This document shows, one piece after another, positions 176-8,777 of a stretch of 38,997 nucleotides of DNA; the first letter of the stretch is position 1, and every line of letters starts with the position of its first letter. The DNA lies in the NCBI GenBank assembly GCA_022823775.1, contig JAJEHI010000125.1, positions 1 to 38,997 on the forward strand, in the 5' to 3' direction. A program made the translations under genes and the position numbers. This DNA is from Defluviicoccus sp. GTDB taxonomy: Bacteria > Pseudomonadota > Alphaproteobacteria > MPNO01. The notes beneath the pieces are model-generated. The model searched no databases and was not told the DNA's origin. It was given only the letters and a program-made list of their open reading frames with translations.

Positions 176-970
176 TCATGCTTCCACCAGCGCGAGCGCG
201 CGGACCGGACTGCCGGAGCCCCGGCGGATCTTGAGGGGGGCGGCGATCACCACCGATCCCCTCGGCGGCAGCTTGTCGAGGTTGGTGAGCGCCGGCAGGC
301 CGAACCGCCCGTTGCCGTGCATCATGTGGTGGCAGGGAAAGGGCACCGCGAAATGCTGCGCCTGCCCGGCGTCGGTCCCGACCGCCTCGCAGCCGAAGCC
401 CACCACGTCGCGCTCCTCGATCAGCCAGGACACCAGCTCGGCGTCGGGGCCGGGGGTGTGGGAGCCGGTCTCGTCCATGTTGAGATAGCGGACCGGATCC
501 AGCCTGAGCGACCAGTCGGTCCGCATCAGCACCCAGGAGCGCGGCGGGATTTCGCCGTGCTCGGCCTCCCACTCCTCCACCCTCTCCACGGTGAGCAGGT
601 AGTCGGGATCGGCGTCGGCCTCTTCCGAGCAGTCGATCACGCAGGCATGCGCGACGAAGAGCGCGGGCGGGATGGTGTCGGTCGCGTTCTCCGGCAGGTC
701 CTTGCCGGAGATCCAGTGGATCGGCGCGTCGAAATGGGTGCCGGTGTGCTCGCCGCAGGAGAAGTTGTTCCAGTAGGTCGCGGGGCCGCGACGGTCGTAG
801 CGCGAGATCTCCTCCATCCGGAACGGCCAGGACTGGCCGAGCTCGGGCGGCAGCACGATGGTCGGCACGTGCCGGTCGAGCGTCATCGTAAGGTCGACGA
901 CACGGATCCCGCCCCCCGCGATGCCGGCCAGCAGCCCCGCGAGGAGGCCGGTGTCGTTGGAGTCGTTCAT
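176..970 (-). CDS. Cyclase family protein (kynurenine-formamidase-like metal hydrolase)
   Basis: This 264-residue protein belongs to the metal-dependent 'cyclase' superfamily (KynB-like), which hydrolyses amide, ester or lactone-type bonds. The family's metal-binding signature HxGTHxDxxxH is intact at residues 75-85 (HTGTHFDAPIH). Further conserved polar blocks occur around residues 195-220, including a CHHMMHG segment. The length is normal for the family and there is no signal peptide, so it is cytosolic. The ATG at 970 follows a GGGGGAG/AGGAG purine tract. It is the last gene of a minus-strand cluster (racemase-like, thiolase-like, DUF35-SDR), separated from the preceding gene by 184 bp that contain a repeat and poly-C/poly-G tracts. 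The substrate cannot be read from sequence; a lactone, formamide or cyclic product of the cluster's pathway is an inference. Confidence 0.85.
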   Translation of the reverse strand: MNDSNDTGLLAGLLAGIAGGGIRVVDLTMTLDRHVPTIVLPPELGQSWPFRMEEISRYDRRGPATYWNNFSCGEHTGTHFDAPIHWISGKDLPENATDTIPPALFVAHACVIDCSEEADADPDYLLTVERVEEWEAEHGEIPPRSWVLMRTDWSLRLDPVRYLNMDETGSHTPGPDAELVSWLIEERDVVGFGCEAVGTDAGQAQHFAVPFPCHHMMHGNGRFGLPALTNLDKLPPRGSVVIAAPLKIRRGSGSPVRALALVEA

Positions 971-1154: not shown

Positions 1155-2396
1155 TCACAGCCCTATCCCGCGCTCGATTTCCTTGGGGTTCTCGGCCCAG
1201 CGGGCGAGGATCTCTTCCGCCACCGCGCCGATGGGGAGGTCCTCGACGCCGCGGCTCAGCCCGGCGACGATGCGGCGCGCGGCGGCGGCGGGGTCGAGCT
1301 TGGGCGGCGGGGCGAGCTGGTGCCACTCGTCCTCGATGGGGCCGAGGAAGGCGTTGACCACCCGCACCCCGCCCTCGGCGAGCTCGGCGCGGAGGCATTG
1401 CGAGAGCGAGAGCGCGGCGGCCTGCGAGGCCGAATAGGTGCCGAGCGCCGGATTGTTCACCCAGGCATAGGCCGACAGCACGTTGACCCACGCCGCCGCG
1501 CCGTGCGCCCCGTCGGCGCCGCGCGCCCGCATCACGGGCCCGAAATGGCCGGCGAGGCGCAGCAGCCCGTGATAGTGGATCGCCATCTCGTCGTGGGCGG
1601 TGTTGAGGTCCATGCGGCCGACCGCCCCGCCCATCCTCAAGTGGTAGGCGTTGTTGACCATGATCTCGACCTTGTCGCCGATCGTGGCGGCCAGCTCCTC
1701 GACCGAATCGGTGTCGGTCACGTCGAGCGGGAAGAGCGTCGCGTTGTCGATCCCGCGCGCCGCTTCCAGATCCGGGCTCTTCCGCCAGGGCTGGGCGTGG
1801 CCCACGTAAATCTGGCGCGCGCCGGCGTCGGCGAAGGCGCGGGCGAGCGCGAGGCCCAGCTCCGTCTTGCCGTCGACGATCAGCACCCGGCGGTCCTTCG
1901 GATCGAATGCCATCTCGCGCAATTGCCGGTCGTCCTCCGGGTTGGGGGCGGGCGTCTCGGGGCTCGCCGTGACCACCGCGTTGCCGGCCCGGTCGATGCC
2001 GAGCGCGAGCCGGACGCGCTCGCCGGCGACGCAATCCTCGGCGAGATGGGCCACCATCGACGGGCCCGCGTCGGCCTCGACGACGCCGAGCCGCCACGGC
2101 AGGCGGTCGCGGAAGAACAGGTCGTTCGAATGGGCGAGCGTGGTCTCCGCCAGCAGCGTGCCGCCGCGGGCCGCGTCGCGCCATTCGAGCCGGTCGCCGA
2201 GGCAGCGCCCGCAAATCTGGCGCGGCGGGTACTGGACCGCCCCGCAATCCGCGCAGGTCTGGAGCGCGAAGCGGCCCGCCGCCGCCATGGCGGTGAGCCC
2301 GTGCGCCTCGCGCGAGCGGTTGCCCGGCGGGCGCGTGGGCAGCCGGGTGCGCCGGGTCGGGTCCTTGCGGACGGGCGGCGGCAGCTTCGTCGTCAT
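1155..2396 (-). CDS. DUF35 Zn-ribbon/OB-fold protein fused to an atypical SDR domain
   Basis: This 413-residue fusion has two parts. Residues about 40-150 are a DUF35 module: a rubredoxin-like zinc ribbon with C48/C51/C62/C65 (CADCG...CGRC), then an OB-fold. Residues about 165-400 are a short-chain dehydrogenase/reductase domain with a Rossmann start (VLIVDGKTELG), VNNA (247-250) and serine S308. The SDR tyrosine Y321 is present, but the YxxxK lysine is glutamine (Y321-S-A-S-Q325), and the Gly-rich loop departs from TGxxxGxG. Redox activity is therefore doubtful; a structural or CoA-handling role is possible. DUF35 proteins usually partner thiolase-fold enzymes and help bind acyl-CoA. The ATG at 2396 overlaps the thiolase stop by four bases (ATGA), indicating translational coupling. 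A much longer open frame upstream (to 2912) is only a shadow of the thiolase gene. Confidence 0.88.
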   Translation of the reverse strand: MTTKLPPPVRKDPTRRTRLPTRPPGNRSREAHGLTAMAAAGRFALQTCADCGAVQYPPRQICGRCLGDRLEWRDAARGGTLLAETTLAHSNDLFFRDRLPWRLGVVEADAGPSMVAHLAEDCVAGERVRLALGIDRAGNAVVTASPETPAPNPEDDRQLREMAFDPKDRRVLIVDGKTELGLALARAFADAGARQIYVGHAQPWRKSPDLEAARGIDNATLFPLDVTDTDSVEELAATIGDKVEIMVNNAYHLRMGGAVGRMDLNTAHDEMAIHYHGLLRLAGHFGPVMRARGADGAHGAAAWVNVLSAYAWVNNPALGTYSASQAAALSLSQCLRAELAEGGVRVVNAFLGPIEDEWHQLAPPPKLDPAAAARRIVAGLSRGVEDLPIGAVAEEILARWAENPKEIERGIGL

Positions 2397-3568
2397 GCGT
2401 CCGCCCGTCCCAGGATCGCCGCCGAGGTGCAGAGGCCGCGGTCGTAGACGATCATCCCGAAACAGGATACCAGCCCGTGACGGGCGCCTTCGACCCGGTT
2501 TCCGTGGGTCTCGCCGGTGAGCTGGCGCAGCGTCTCGACCAGGCCGATGAAGCCGCCCCCCGCGCCCGCCTGCCCCGCCGAGAGCTGGCCGCCGGATGTG
2601 TTGAACGGGAAGTCGCCGCCAACCGTCAGGTCGCGTTCGCGCACGAAGGCGGGCGCCTCGCCCTTGGCGCAGAAGCCGAGATCCTCGATCTGCATGAAAC
2701 AGATGACCGGGTAGTCGTCGTAGGCCTGGAAGAGGTCGACGTCGTCCGGCCCGACCCCGGCCTGGCCGTAGAGCTCGTCGATGTCGAGCGCCCACCCGCC
2801 GCGATACTGGATCGGATCGTCCGGGAAGGCGTTGTGCCGTTCGACGGTCGCGAGGATCGACGCGTATGGAACGCCGAGCGTTCGCGCCCGGTCCTCGCTC
2901 GTCACCAGGCACGCCTCGGCGCCGGCGCAGGGCATCACGCAGTCGAACAGGCGGAGCGGCTCGGCGATCGGGCGCGCGTTCAGATACTGCTCCATGGTGA
3001 GCGGGCGCTTCATCATCGCGTGCGGCACGGGGAGCGCGTTCTCCCGCTGGGCGATGCAGAGGCGGCCGAAATCCTCCCGCCGCGCTCCGTATTCCCGCAT
3101 GTAGCGGTCGGTCAGGAACGCGAAGCTCGCGTTGGGACCGCCGGCGCCGTAAGGGTAGACCGCGTCGTTGGCGAACTGGCTGAAGGTCGCGATGGTGCGG
3201 CGGAACGAATCGACGTGGTTGGTGTCGGCGCCGATCAGGGCGACGATCTCCGCGTCCCCCGCCTGGACCGCCCGCGCCGCGCGCCTCAGCGCCACTGCGC
3301 CCGACGCGCCGCCCATCGGGATGTGGTCCAGCCAGCGCGGCGAGAGGCCGAGATGCTGCATCAGCCCGACCGCCGAATCGGGGTAGAGGTTGAAGCTGGA
3401 GACGCAGAACCCGTCGATGTCCTCCTTCTCCAGCCCGGCCGCCCCGATCAGCCCGGCGAGCGCCCGGCCGCAGAACCAGTGGGCGCTCCGGATCGAATAG
3501 CGCGCGTAAGGGACAGTCACCGGCGCCGCGACGACGATGCCTTCGTAGCCCCGGCGCGCGGCGGCCAC
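2393..3568 (-). CDS. Thiolase-like protein lacking the nucleophilic Cys (SCP-x/Ltp2-like)
   Basis: This 391-residue thiolase-fold protein resembles the SCP-x/lipid-transfer branch of COG0183. The segment that normally carries the acyl-accepting cysteine (CxSG) reads G-G-A-S-G at 86-90, so Cys is Gly87. The C-terminal GHPxGAxG loop reads GQAGAGG (332-338), so the active-site His is Gln333. The last CxG cysteine is kept (C369-F-G). Tyrosines Y283 and Y286 lie in the segment where SCP-x thiolases have HDxF. Ordinary thiolysis or Claisen chemistry is therefore unlikely. Cys-less thiolase folds paired with DUF35 partners, such as Ltp2-ChsH2, are retro-aldolases, which is my preferred analogy. The start is GTG at 3568, two bases after the racemase-like stop; the gene overlaps the DUF35-SDR start by four bases. 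Confidence 0.87.
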   Translation of the reverse strand: MAAARRGYEGIVVAAPVTVPYARYSIRSAHWFCGRALAGLIGAAGLEKEDIDGFCVSSFNLYPDSAVGLMQHLGLSPRWLDHIPMGGASGAVALRRAARAVQAGDAEIVALIGADTNHVDSFRRTIATFSQFANDAVYPYGAGGPNASFAFLTDRYMREYGARREDFGRLCIAQRENALPVPHAMMKRPLTMEQYLNARPIAEPLRLFDCVMPCAGAEACLVTSEDRARTLGVPYASILATVERHNAFPDDPIQYRGGWALDIDELYGQAGVGPDDVDLFQAYDDYPVICFMQIEDLGFCAKGEAPAFVRERDLTVGGDFPFNTSGGQLSAGQAGAGGGFIGLVETLRQLTGETHGNRVEGARHGLVSCFGMIVYDRGLCTSAAILGRADA

Positions 3569-3570
3569 GG

Positions 3571-4353
3571 TCAGAGGCCCTTCGGGTTGGCCATGAACTC
3601 CTCGATCACCTCGGGCGGCGGCTGCTCGAACTCGCCGGTGCGGCTCACCGAAATCCCGGTCAGCCGTTTCAGCTTGACCGCCATCTCCGTCATCTTGACC
3701 AGGATCGGGATGCCGTTGATGACCGGCGCGCCACCGATATTGTGGTTGAAGAGCCTGGAGAACAGCAGCATCGCGATCCCGCCGCCCGGGATCAGCACAT
3801 CGACGCCGCCCTTCACCAGCGGCTCGCCCTGCTCGGCGAAGCTCGCCACCGCCTCGTCGAACCGCTCCGCGTCGTCGAACCCGGCCAGGATCGAACCGGG
3901 CTCGAAGCTCATCGCGTGCACGCCGGTCACCCGCTCGCGCAGCCCGTACTTGCCGATCTGGTGGCGGAACCACGAGATGTAGCGCGGGTTGATGGTGACG
4001 ATGCCGACCTGCTGGCCGAGCTGGCAGGCATAGAGCATCGAGGCCTCGCCGAGCGAAAGCACCGGGATGTCGACGACGGCGCGCGCCTCGTAGAGCCCGG
4101 CGTCCTGGAAGTGGCCCATCGCGAAGGCGTCGTAGCCCTCGCGCTCGGCGACGACGGCGTTGCAGATGACCTCGCGCGCGCAGCGGAACTCGGACAGCGC
4201 GTGGGCGTAGGAATCGGGCGGGGTGATGCCCTTGATGTCGACGATCGTGCCCTCGTCGACGATTTCCGCGAGATATTCCCGCAGGTTTTCCCAGTAGCTG
4301 CCGGCCTGCTCCTCGTCGGTGTAGCTCTGATAGGCGATCCTGATAGGTTTCAT
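3571..4353 (-). CDS. Asp/Glu/hydantoin racemase-fold protein lacking both catalytic Cys
   Basis: This 260-residue cytosolic protein has the pseudo-symmetric Asp/Glu racemase fold of the hydantoin-racemase branch. The usual first catalytic segment, GCFxDPGL, reads G-H-F-Q-D-A-G-L (80-87), so Cys is His81. The second, GCAGM, reads G-G-G-I-A-M (190-195), so Cys is Gly191. With neither cysteine, two-base racemisation by the known mechanism is not expected. Single-Cys relatives such as arylmalonate decarboxylase and maleate isomerase show that the fold can be repurposed. The ATG at 4353 follows an AAGGGGA Shine-Dalgarno. It is the first gene of the minus-strand cluster and is divergent from aapJ, so the 238-bp gap should hold promoters for both. 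The function is unknown; the family assignment is firm. Confidence 0.85.
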   Translation of the reverse strand: MKPIRIAYQSYTDEEQAGSYWENLREYLAEIVDEGTIVDIKGITPPDSYAHALSEFRCAREVICNAVVAEREGYDAFAMGHFQDAGLYEARAVVDIPVLSLGEASMLYACQLGQQVGIVTINPRYISWFRHQIGKYGLRERVTGVHAMSFEPGSILAGFDDAERFDEAVASFAEQGEPLVKGGVDVLIPGGGIAMLLFSRLFNHNIGGAPVINGIPILVKMTEMAVKLKRLTGISVSRTGEFEQPPPEVIEEFMANPKGL

Positions 4354-4449: not shown

Positions 4450-4479
4450 TTGTTGCCGACCCCGGTTGCTGCATAGAGT
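4450..4479 (+). promoter_or_regulatory. Possible sigma70 promoter upstream of aapJ
   Basis: TTGTTG (4450-4455) lies 16 bases before CATAGA (4472-4477), or 18 before TAGAGT (4474-4479), in the 238-bp gap between the divergent racemase-like gene and aapJ. Both hexamers are imperfect. The position, about 110 bases before the aapJ ATG, is reasonable. This is a weak call; nothing else in the 4354-4591 gap stands out. Confidence 0.3.
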
Positions 4480-4591
4480 AACTTCATGGTGGGCGCTTGA
4501 CGGATCGGCGACCGTTTCGGGCGTCGGGCACGCCGCCGATCGCCAACGGAAGGCCTGCACGGCACCCACCGATTATAACCGGAGGACGAAC

Positions 4592-5620
4592 ATGAACCTT
4601 AAACGAATTGCCGGGGCGGCCGCTGTCGCGGCCGCGTTCGCGGTTACCGGCGGAGCGCCCGGCCAAGCGGCCACGCTCGACGACGTAAAGAAGGCCGGCA
4701 CGCTCAAATGCGGCATCAATACCGGCCTGCCGGGCTTCGCCTATACCGACGACAAGGGCAAATGGACCGGCTTCGACGTCGCCTATTGCCGGGCGCTGGC
4801 GGCGGCCGTGCTGGGCGACGCCAACAAGGTCACCTTCGTCAACCTGACCGGCAAGACCCGCTTCCCGGCGCTGGCCTCGGGCGAAATCGACGTGCTGTCG
4901 CGCAACACCACCTGGACCCTCTCGCGCGACGTCGACCTCGGCTTCACCTTCATCGGCGTCAACTACTATGACGGCCAGGGCTTCATCGGCCGCAAGTCGC
5001 TCGGCGTGAAGAGCGCCAAGGAGCTCGACGGCGCCTCGGTCTGCATCCAGACCGGCACCACGACCGAGCTCAACCTGGCGGACTTCTTCCGGGTCAACAA
5101 GATCAAGTACGAGCCGGTGCCGATCGAGAACAACGCCGAGGCCCGCGCCGCCTACGGCGCGGAGCGCTGCGACGTCTACACGACCGACGCCTCGGGCCTG
5201 GCGGCGACCCGGACCACCTTCTCCGACGCCGACAAGCACATGGTGTTCCCCGAGATCATCTCCAAGGAGCCGCTCGGGCCGCTGGTGCGCCAGGGCGACG
5301 ACCAGTGGGCGGACATCGCGCGCTGGACGCTGAACGCGCTGATCAGCGCCGAGGAGCTCGGGGTGACCCAGGCCAATGTCGCGAAGATGGCCGAGGGCAC
5401 CAACAATCCGGAGATCAACCGGATGCTGGGCAAGGAAGGCTCGATGGGCAAGATGCTCGGCCTCGACGCGCAGTGGGCGGTCCGCGCGATCGCCGCGGAA
5501 GGCAACTATGCCGAGATGTTCGAGCGCTATATCGGCTCCAAGAGCCCGCTCGGCCTGGCGCGCGGCCTCAATGCCCTCTACAAGAACGGCGGCATCCTCT
5601 ATTCGCCTCCGTTCCGGTAG
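4592..5620 (+). CDS. aapJ: General L-amino acid ABC transporter, periplasmic binding protein AapJ
   Basis: This 342-residue protein captures amino acids in the periplasm for the Aap permease. An N-terminal signal peptide (MNLKRIAG... to about GQAA, residue 27) precedes a type-2 solute-binding domain. That domain carries the family features KKAGTLKCGINTGLPGF (33-49), LSRNTTWTLSRD and a long C-terminal extension ending near ILYSPPFR, which separate AapJ/BztA from shorter polar-amino-acid binding proteins. The ATG at 4592 has a strong GGAGGA site at 4581-4586; the open frame continues upstream to 4466 but has no comparable site. It is first in the aapJQMP operon, followed by a 30-bp palindrome that probably leaves the binding-protein mRNA in excess over the permease genes. 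In Rhizobium, Aap transports a broad range of L-amino acids. Product confidence is high. Confidence 0.96.
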   Translation: MNLKRIAGAAAVAAAFAVTGGAPGQAATLDDVKKAGTLKCGINTGLPGFAYTDDKGKWTGFDVAYCRALAAAVLGDANKVTFVNLTGKTRFPALASGEIDVLSRNTTWTLSRDVDLGFTFIGVNYYDGQGFIGRKSLGVKSAKELDGASVCIQTGTTTELNLADFFRVNKIKYEPVPIENNAEARAAYGAERCDVYTTDASGLAATRTTFSDADKHMVFPEIISKEPLGPLVRQGDDQWADIARWTLNALISAEELGVTQANVAKMAEGTNNPEINRMLGKEGSMGKMLGLDAQWAVRAIAAEGNYAEMFERYIGSKSPLGLARGLNALYKNGGILYSPPFR

Positions 5621-5633
5621 AATCGATTACCCG

Positions 5634-5663
5634 CCGCCCCGCCCGGATATCCGGGCGGGGCGG
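5634..5663. terminator. Perfect 30-bp palindrome between aapJ and aapQ (mRNA stabiliser/attenuator)
   Basis: Left arm 5634-5648 and right arm 5649-5663 are exact reverse complements with no spacer, almost all G/C except a central GATATC. It begins 13 bases after the aapJ stop, and TGCCTTTTCC follows, too few T for a canonical intrinsic terminator. A stable stem at this position in binding-protein operons commonly protects the upstream message from 3' exonucleases and partly terminates transcription. That role is inferred from position and symmetry. Confidence 0.75.
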
Positions 5664-5698
5664 TGCCTTTTCCGGTACCCGATGAGAACCCCCGCGCC

Positions 5699-6886
5699 GT
5701 GACCGACAGAGCACCGTCCGTTGGCGGCGGGTTCGACATCGCCCGGGCGTGGACCGACGAGCGCGTCCGCGGCGTCATCTTCCAGATCGCGATGATTGTC
5801 GGCGTTGTGGCGGTCGCCGTATTCATCGTCCTCAACACCATCGCGAACTACGAAGAAGCCGGCCTTTCCTTCGGCTACGGCTTCCTGTTCGACACCGCCA
5901 ACTTCGACATCAACCAGCGGCTGATCGAGTACGCCTCGACCTCGACCTACGGGAAGGCGTTCGCGGTCGGCGGGATCAATACGATCCTGGTCGCCGTGAT
6001 GGGCGTCGCGACCGCCACGGTCATCGGCTTCGTGACGGGCGTTCTTAGGCTGTCGAACAACTTCCTGGTGAGCCGGATCGTGGGAATCTGGGTCGAGTTC
6101 ACCCGAAACGTCCCGGTCCTGCTGCAGATCATCTTCTGGTGGCTGTTCATGCTGGCGCTGCCGAAGGTGCGCCAGAGCCTGTCGATCGGCGACACGGTCT
6201 TTCTCAACAACCGCGGCGTTCGCCTGCCCTCCCCGATCTACGAGGACGGCTCGGCGATCGTTCTGGCGACGATCCTGGCGGGCATCGTGGCGACCGTCGC
6301 GGTCCGGATATGGGCGAAGAGGCGCCAGGACGCCACCGGCCGGATCTTCCCGGTCGGCTGGGCCGGTCTCGGGCTGATCGCGGGGCTGCCGCTGGCGGTC
6401 TATTTCGCCCTCGGTCAGCCGCTCGCCTTCGACGTGCCGGTGCAGAAGCGCTTCAACCTGCAGGGCGGCGTCAGCATCACGCCCGAGCTGGTGGCGCTGT
6501 GGCTCGCGCTTTCCACCTATACCGGCGCCTTCATCTCGGAAATCGTGCGCAGCGGGATCCTCGCGGTTTCCAGGGGACAGACCGAGGCGGCCGGCGCGCT
6601 GGGGCTGCGGCGCGGGCAGACCATGCGCCTGATCGTCCTGCCGCAGGCGCTGCGCGTGATCGTCCCGCCGATGACCAGCCAGTATCTCAACCTGACCAAG
6701 AACTCCTCGCTCGCGGTGGCGATCGGCTATCAGGACATCGTCTCGGTCGGCGATACCATTCTCAACCAGAGCGGTCAGGCGATCGAGGTGATCTCGCTCT
6801 ACATGGCCTTCTACCTGTCGCTCAGCCTGCTCACGTCCGCGTTCATGAACTGGTACAACAAGCGCATCGCGCTGGTGGAGAGATGA
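5699..6886 (+). CDS. aapQ: General L-amino acid ABC transporter, permease AapQ
   Basis: This 395-residue inner-membrane permease (His/Glu/Gln/Arg family) has a first helix near residues 25-45, a periplasmic domain, and a cluster of helices towards the C terminus. Before the final helices is the EAA loop EAAGALGLRRGQTMRL, which contacts the ATPase. It pairs with AapM to form the channel. The frame is open from a GTG at 5663, inside the end of the palindrome; I prefer the GTG at 5699 (MTDRAPSVGGG) because it leaves the stem-loop untranslated. Neither start has a clear Shine-Dalgarno, so the N terminus is uncertain by 12 residues. Its stop overlaps the aapM start by four bases (ATGA). Confidence 0.93.
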   Translation: MTDRAPSVGGGFDIARAWTDERVRGVIFQIAMIVGVVAVAVFIVLNTIANYEEAGLSFGYGFLFDTANFDINQRLIEYASTSTYGKAFAVGGINTILVAVMGVATATVIGFVTGVLRLSNNFLVSRIVGIWVEFTRNVPVLLQIIFWWLFMLALPKVRQSLSIGDTVFLNNRGVRLPSPIYEDGSAIVLATILAGIVATVAVRIWAKRRQDATGRIFPVGWAGLGLIAGLPLAVYFALGQPLAFDVPVQKRFNLQGGVSITPELVALWLALSTYTGAFISEIVRSGILAVSRGQTEAAGALGLRRGQTMRLIVLPQALRVIVPPMTSQYLNLTKNSSLAVAIGYQDIVSVGDTILNQSGQAIEVISLYMAFYLSLSLLTSAFMNWYNKRIALVER

Positions 6887-7995
6887 CGGATCGCGCCTTC
6901 CATCGCAGCCGGGCGCAGATGCTGCCGGAGCGGCCGGCGCCGATCATCAGCGTCGGCGTCATCGGCTGGATACGGACCAACCTGTTCTCCACCTGGCTGA
7001 GCGTGGCGCTGACGCTGGTCTCCGTCGGCCTGCTCGCGCTGATCCTGCCGCCGTTGATCGACTGGACGTTTCTCGAGGCCACCTATGTCGGCGCATCCGG
7101 CAAGGACTGCATCGGCGCGGGCGCGTGCTGGGCGTGGTTCGACCAGCGCATCGACCAGTTCGTCTACGGCTTCTACCCGGAGGACGCCTATTGGCGCGCC
7201 AACCTCGCCGTCATTTTGCTGGTGCCGGCGGTCGGCTATCTGCTGTTCGCCAACCTGCCCTATGCGCGCTACGGGCGGTGGTTCTCGCTCGCCTATCCGG
7301 TAATCGCGGCGATCCTTCTGGTCGGCGGGCTCGGGCTGGACATGGTCCGGACCGACCAGTTCGGCGGCTTCGTGCTCAACCTCGTCGCCGGCATTACGGG
7401 GATCGTGCTCTCGCTTCCCATCGGCATCCTGCTGGCGCTGGGCCGGCGCTCGCGCATGCCGATCGTCCGCATGTTCTCGGTCGCGTTCATCGAGTTCATC
7501 CGCGGCGTCCCCCTTATCACCCTGCTCTTCGTCGCCATCATCCTGCTGCCGATCTTCCTGCCTCGCGAGGTCTCGCTCGACCAGCTCGTCCGGGTCATGG
7601 TCATCATCACGCTGTTCGCCTCGGCCTACATGGCGGAGGTGATCCGGGGCGGGCTGCAGGCGATCCCCCAGGGACAGTACGAGGCGGGCCAGGCGATGGC
7701 CCTGGGCTACTGGCAGTCGATGCGCCTGATCGTCCTGCCGCAGGCGCTGAAGATCTCCATCCCGGGGATCGTCAACACCTTCATCGGCCTGTTCAAGGAC
7801 ACCACGCTGGTCATCATCATCGGCCTGTTCGACATCCTCGGCCAGGCGCGCCTCCTCCAGACCAACCAGGACTGGCTGGGCAAGGTGGATTACGAGACCT
7901 TCCTGCTGGCGGCGCTGTTCTTCTTCGTGATCTGCTTCGGCATGTCGCGCTACTCGATTAATCTGGAGAAGCGCCTCGACACCACGCGGCGCTGA
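6883..7995 (+). CDS. aapM: General L-amino acid ABC transporter, permease AapM
   Basis: This is the second, 370-residue permease of the Aap system. After a hydrophilic N-terminal segment come a transmembrane helix (about residues 38-58), a loop and further hydrophobic helices. The EAA-type coupling loop [17 protein letters not shown] near residues 266-282 is followed by [12 protein letters not shown], typical of amino-acid ABC permeases. The ATG at 6883 lies in an ATGA overlap with the aapQ stop, so the two channel subunits are translationally coupled. The stop at 7995 is 11 bases before aapP. The frame is open far upstream, but that part is a shadow of aapQ. Confidence 0.94.
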
Positions 7996-8006
7996 GGGAG
8001 GGCACC

Positions 8007-8777
<771 letters not shown>

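Follow-up and report, generated by a model that had tools for sequence, protein, structure and literature searches.

The window, a stretch of 38,997 nucleotides from Defluviicoccus sp. that makes up an entire contig (JAJEHI010000125.1), encodes a thiolase-fold protein of 391 residues that is assigned, from its sequence and its gene neighborhood, to IadG of the auxin-degradation (iad) operon family. IadG is very likely a retro-aldolase of the type represented by Ltp2 and Sal, one that would convert dioxindole-3-acetyl-CoA to isatin and acetyl-CoA with the DUF35 domain of IadH as its partner. It is a known gene that carries a misleading label: the loss of the thiolase Cys and His is already known from Ltp2 and Sal, and what is new is an invariant aspartate, Asp285. 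No proposal of an aldolase for the iad pathway was found among the open-access papers searched. The features of the locus are listed in Table 1.

Table 1. Genes and active-site codons of the iadG locus (positions within the window)
Feature	Position	Strand	Description
iadG-family ORF	2393..3568	minus	391 aa, GTG start; thiolase-fold protein, proposed retro-aldolase
G87-A-S-G90 codons	3299..3310	minus	CxSG nucleophile position of thiolases
Y283-D-D-Y286 codons	2711..2722	minus	aligned with YDCY (CtSal) and YDHF (TcLtp2)
Gln333 codon	2570..2572	minus	column of the His of GHPxG thiolases, CtSal Gln352 and TcLtp2 Tyr344
Asp/Glu/hydantoin racemase-family gene	3571..4353	minus	first operon gene in this genus and its relatives
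IadH-family protein	1155..2396	minus	DUF35 (rubredoxin-like C4 zinc ribbon and OB fold) fused with a degenerate SDR
IadI-family isatin hydrolase (PF04199)	176..970	minus	best PDB match isatin hydrolase 5nmp, E 1.7e-101

The key segments of the protein read G86-G87-A-S-G90, Y283-D-D-Y286, G332-Q333-A-G-A and C369-F-G371, and both the nucleophilic Cys (CxSG) and the active-site His (GHPxG) of the thiolase signature are absent. The first-pass annotation had placed Gly87 and Gln333 at these two positions, as can be read directly from the sequence, and its view that standard Claisen or thiolytic chemistry is excluded is upheld because both groups are missing. The loss is real but is not peculiar to this protein: it corresponds to a known hallmark of the Ltp2/Sal aldolase group, the single real difference being an Asp at the Cys/His position. 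The protein belongs to Pfam family Thiolase_C_1, and its NCBIfam matches, to models named "lipid-transfer protein" and "acetyl-CoA acetyltransferase," are all far under the cut-off.

A scan restricted to a single genome for each species yielded at least 80 close iadG loci with 65–94% identity, and these were combined with loci from genome relatives and plasmid records in an alignment of 90 close homologues. Gly87 is kept in 89 of the 90, and in 89 of 89 with an intact frame at that spot; the sole exception, from Azospirillum thermophilum (L008), has a frameshift exactly there. This plasmid-borne iadG (positions 1740–2866 of L008) is split by the frameshift and unannotated; downstream of it are a match to DUF35-SDR and a gene for a cyclase. 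Orthologues with the Cys and His, or with an aligned Cys at the nucleophile position, were sought and none was present among the intact close homologues. Residues Y283, D284, D285, Y286, N323, Q328 and Q333 are invariant (90/90), including both of the tyrosines that had been suggested as alternative catalytic residues, and polar, aromatic or Cys residues are invariant at 42 positions in all. The dN/dS ratio is 0.15–0.23 between the window iadG and four close homologues from Defluviicoccus and nearby. By these comparisons the reading frame encodes a constrained protein sequence that reflects neither chance nor decay. The Cys of C369-F-G, earlier regarded as a retained thiolase Cys, did not withstand the alignment, in which 69 of 89 close homologues have Gly at this position and 20 have Cys; a leftover catalytic Cys is ruled out there, given the Gly in most homologues.

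The best PDB matches by sequence are 4u4e (a putative thiolase), 9myr (CtSal, a bile-acid C5 side-chain aldolase) and 6ok1 (TcLtp2, a steroid C3 side-chain aldolase). An AlphaFold2 model of IadG, built with 39 family sequences, has a mean pLDDT of 87.5 and a pTM of 0.90. In a Foldseek search with this model, CtSal ranked first and TcLtp2 took ranks 2 and 3, and the top match in VIA-align was again CtSal, with a Z score of 49.9 over 377 residues and an rmsd of 2.6 Å. True thiolases of the DUF35 and SCP2 groups rank only a few Z units under CtSal, and it is therefore the active site, and not the fold alone, that decides the kind of enzyme. In a tree of 53 sequences, all proteins with a YDDY or YDDF motif form one clade (SH-aLRT 98), and CtSal is the next branch beside it (SH-aLRT 91). 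The window genome also contains a paralogue with YDDF, a Gln at the His position and a DUF35-like stretch nearby (L002/L129, contig C82), which is followed by an acyl-CoA ligase gene and preceded by SsuA-type ABC transporter genes; it is an apparent sister aldolase.

In the alignment, Gly87 of IadG shares its column with CtSal Gly89 and a Gly of TcLtp2, Tyr283 with CtSal Tyr302 and TcLtp2 Tyr294, Gln328 and Gln333 with CtSal Gln347 and Gln352, and Asp285 with CtSal Cys304 and TcLtp2 His296. The catalytic bases of the two known enzymes are Tyr302 in CtSal and Tyr294 in TcLtp2, the acid is the essential Cys304 in Sal and Tyr344 in Ltp2, and a Gly at the thiolase Cys position precludes thiolysis (Rolfe et al., PMC12329534). 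The two tyrosines proposed as alternative catalytic residues thus fare differently. Tyr283 aligns with tyrosines of proven catalytic function, which supports its candidacy, whereas Tyr286 is probably not catalytic, and is unlikely to be the acid, because the equivalent Tyr305 of CtSal can be changed to Phe at a cost of only 7.6-fold in kcat (PMC12329534). The likely second catalytic residue is Asp285, which had been overlooked. Replacement of CtSal Cys304 by Ser, Ala or His abolishes activity (PMC12329534); with an Asp at that site, Asp285 must therefore work differently from the residue it replaces.

CtSal resembles IadG in its fold, the Gly at the nucleophile site, the catalytic Tyr, both Gln residues, the YDxY motif and the presence of a DUF35 partner, but it has only 28% identity, its essential Cys304 is replaced by an Asp that is found in 90 of 90 IadG homologues, and its DUF35 domain has a Cys3His1 zinc site and is attached to a MaoC-type hydratase, as compared with the C4 site and SDR domain of IadH. 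TcLtp2 shares the fold, the Gly, the catalytic Tyr294 and a C4-type DUF35 partner, and differs in having YDHF with the general acid Tyr344 in place of YDDY with Gln333. The T. brucei SLP protein (5ab4–5ab7), for which an aldolase role has been proposed (PMC12329534), also has a thiolase fold and a YDCF motif, but lacks a DUF35 partner and has Cys at the Asp285 position. The benzoylsuccinyl-CoA thiolase BbsAB pairs a thiolase with a DUF35 subunit, and its pathway includes a partly inactive SDR pair, BbsCD, with pseudoenzyme subunits according to work cited in PMC10818641; in contrast to IadG, BbsB has both the Cys and the His, and the SDR and DUF35 parts are separate proteins. The absence from IadG of both Ltp2 Tyr344 and the essential Sal Cys304 counts against an aldolase. 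There is nonetheless strong indirect evidence that IadG acts like the Ltp2/Sal aldolases, yet it is neither Ltp2 nor Sal because the second catalytic residues of both are replaced.

Among 92 loci with a close IadG homologue, a DUF35-SDR gene is present in 89 and a cyclase gene in 81. The full order, found in Achromobacter, Bordetella, Aromatoleum, Azoarcus and Roseibium, is reductase, oxygenase α, oxygenase β, CoA ligase, iadG, DUF35-SDR, cyclase and SDR; most of these loci have an iorB-like gene upstream and many have ABC transporter genes downstream. The published order of the iad genes is iadC-D-E-F-G-H-I-J, with iadC labeled as a reductase, iadDE as an oxygenase, iadF as an acyl-CoA synthetase, iadG as an "acetyl-CoA acetyltransferase" (ketothiolase), iadH as an "alcohol dehydrogenase," iadI as a "kynurenine formamidase" and iadJ as a dehydrogenase (PMC12633357), and Achromobacter and Bradyrhizobium have been named as iad-like (PMC9613470). 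For the Roseibium oxygenase, the match to the solved structure of Variovorax IadD (9o71) scores 580 bits, against 154 bits for the next other enzyme. IadG of the family loci occupies the same slot in the gene order as Variovorax IadG, with IadH and IadI at its flanks and an IadD-type oxygenase nearby, and the kinship is drawn from this order and these neighbors rather than from the Variovorax IadG sequence itself. The window copy differs from the Variovorax operon in being preceded by a racemase gene and in having no adjoining iadCDE or iadJ.

The gene behind the DUF35-SDR gene in Roseibium aggregatum is that of LaIHA (5nnb, 582 bits, 257 residues). To our knowledge, from a search that was not exhaustive, no paper links LaIHA to the iad operon. 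In the window IadI, residues H75, H79, D81, H85, D200 and H214 are kept, which preserves the HxG[T/A]HxDxPxH motif and the Asp-His-His proton shuttle, and Gln219 of LaIHA is replaced by Pro226. Both the isatin hydrolase activity of LaIHA and its complex with isatinate have been published (PMC6117287). Because the gene next to DUF35-SDR in Roseibium encodes a proven isatin hydrolase, the product handed on by the preceding step should be isatin. Between iadH and iadI of the window (about 971–1154) there is a GC-rich, repeat-like stretch with long G/C runs.

The start codon of iadH overlaps the stop codon of iadG (ATGA). All 86 IadH homologues carry the four zinc Cys residues of the DUF35 domain; this domain is assigned from Pfam and the Cys pattern, as the structural search listed only SDR matches. 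The model of IadH (pLDDT 81.9) has an intact SDR fold, with 5u4s as its best match (Z 30.7), but of the three TGxxxGxG glycines only one is left and the catalytic Tyr and Lys of YxxxK occur together in only 3 of 86 sequences, and the SDR domain is probably a non-catalytic partner, or pseudoenzyme. Close to the genes of remote IadG relatives a DUF35 stretch was seen but nothing that matched the SDR part, and the SDR fusion is therefore a mark of the IadG/IadH family.

C3 of dioxindole-3-acetic acid bears the hydroxyl, the C2 carbonyl, the aryl ring and the CH2COOH side chain, and no hydrogen. A 3-ketoacyl-CoA therefore cannot be formed and thiolysis is hence impossible, so that the label "ketothiolase" is unsuited. 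Retro-aldol cleavage of a tertiary β-alcohol to a ketone is the reaction of Ltp2, and it is the one proposed for IadG. In this scheme the CoA ligase of the operon would make dioxindole-3-acetyl-CoA, a β-hydroxyacyl-CoA with its hydroxyl on a fully substituted carbon. Tyr283 would serve as the base and remove the proton of this hydroxyl, and the bond to the acetyl-CoA part would be cleaved to give isatin, the ketone, and acetyl-CoA as its enolate. Asp285, with the help of Gln328 and Gln333, would reprotonate the enolate for release as acetyl-CoA. The Gly87 that replaces the thiolase Cys is expected to provide space and a backbone amide directed to the hydroxyl, and the DUF35 domain of IadH would clasp IadG in the manner seen for Ltp2 and Sal with their partners. 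The ring of isatin would then be opened by IadI. In Variovorax, deletion of iadF, iadG, iadH or iadI leads to the accumulation of dioxindole-3-acetic acid (C10H9NO4) (PMC12633357). The main datum against the scheme comes from the iadI deletion, in which a compound of formula C8H7NO2, that of dioxindole, was reported rather than isatin and a "reductive removal" of the side chain was inferred (Jiang et al., PMC12633357); a retro-aldol reaction predicts isatin (C8H5NO2) first. Reduction of isatin by other enzymes of the cell when IadI is absent could explain C8H7NO2, and isatin itself has been found in Variovorax cultures (PMC9613470).

The published interpretation treats IadG as an acetyl-CoA acetyltransferase of the ketothiolase type and IadH as an alcohol dehydrogenase, the two together removing the side chain reductively to give dioxindole. 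It was proposed from annotation and draws on the C8H7NO2 of the iadI deletion (Jiang et al., PMC12633357). We regard it as improbable: no intact close homologue has the nucleophilic Cys or the GHPxG His, the β carbon of the substrate is quaternary, IadH has lost the SDR residues described above, and the enzyme that follows is of proven isatin hydrolase activity. It is less probable still that IadG is an acyltransferase or hydrolase with another nucleophile, such as Cys214, Cys210 or Cys300. All three are invariant in the 90 homologues, but Ltp2, Sal and BbsB also have Cys300, and most of them have Cys210, so these two are not specific, and none of the three lies within a motif known to be catalytic in this fold. 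A decayed or purely structural pseudo-thiolase without catalysis is suggested by the absence of both classic groups. The residue invariance and the dN/dS values given above lead decay to be rejected, however, and Variovorax requires iadG for the formation of anthranilate (PMC12633357); a protein of this kind is extremely unlikely.

A rival that concerns only the Rhodospirillales operon, including that of Defluviicoccus, retains the family and the retro-aldol reaction but replaces the auxin intermediate with another oxindole or another acid from which isatin arises. We consider this possible, if somewhat doubtful. The named loci closest to the window copy, among the matches listed, are from Defluviicoccus. 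Neither iadCDE nor iadJ was found beside the operon in the window genome or its Rhodospirillales relatives, which leaves some doubt about the substrate in the window genome. In these oxygenase-less loci only the racemase gene, iadG, iadH, iadI and a CoA ligase recur, the racemase and a more distant CoA ligase taking the place of the missing genes, and the full-length oxygenase homologues elsewhere in the window genome have no more than 39% identity to Roseibium IadD. In the other direction, iadG, iadH and the isatin hydrolase gene stay together and the active-site columns are identical, which is consistent with the same substrate for the Defluviicoccus copy. Entry in this genome may be from auxin, through an oxygenase that is not linked to the operon, or from a different acid that yields isatin. 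On the window contig, iadG-iadH-iadI are the only genes of the iad set found together, and the operon reaches the contig end; contig C55 opens with the final part of a CoA ligase that is 91% identical to the ligase after iadI in a relative. The racemase-family gene, whose best PDB match is a hydantoin racemase (50 bits), is the first gene of the operon in Rhodospirillales and is found close to it in Bradyrhizobium, and we know of no role for it in auxin breakdown. Just past the operon in one Defluviicoccus genome (L042, 13824–16571, plus strand) is a large-subunit gene of a molybdenum hydroxylase like xanthine dehydrogenase; it was considered as a possible indole-ring hydroxylase and was set aside because it does not recur in other loci. 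A divergent ABC operon read from the ORFs of the window (4466–8777, plus strand) encodes an amino-acid-type binding protein, two permeases and an ATPase, and ABC transporter genes are likewise near the iad genes in another Defluviicoccus-type genome (L131).

The removal of the side chain in bacterial auxin degradation via isatin has so far rested on annotation, and for this step the analysis proposes a chemistry, catalytic residues and a partner domain. The proposal predicts that isatin and acetyl-CoA are formed directly, that NAD(P)H is not required and that Y283 and D285 mutants are inactive. If the proposal is true, the published iad scheme, with its ketothiolase, reductive removal and dioxindole as main intermediate, is to be revised, and the misleading labels "ketothiolase" and "alcohol dehydrogenase" would be corrected across many proteobacterial genomes. 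We think it reasonably likely that the Tyr-Asp pair of the YDDY and YDDF proteins represents a third design of DUF35-dependent thiolase-fold aldolase, used in auxin degradation and, by a sister group, in other pathways, with IadH as a pseudo-SDR scaffold that completes the aldolase through its DUF35 domain. The steroid side-chain aldolases would thereby gain a further substrate class, and an already known position would hold a catalytic residue that is new.
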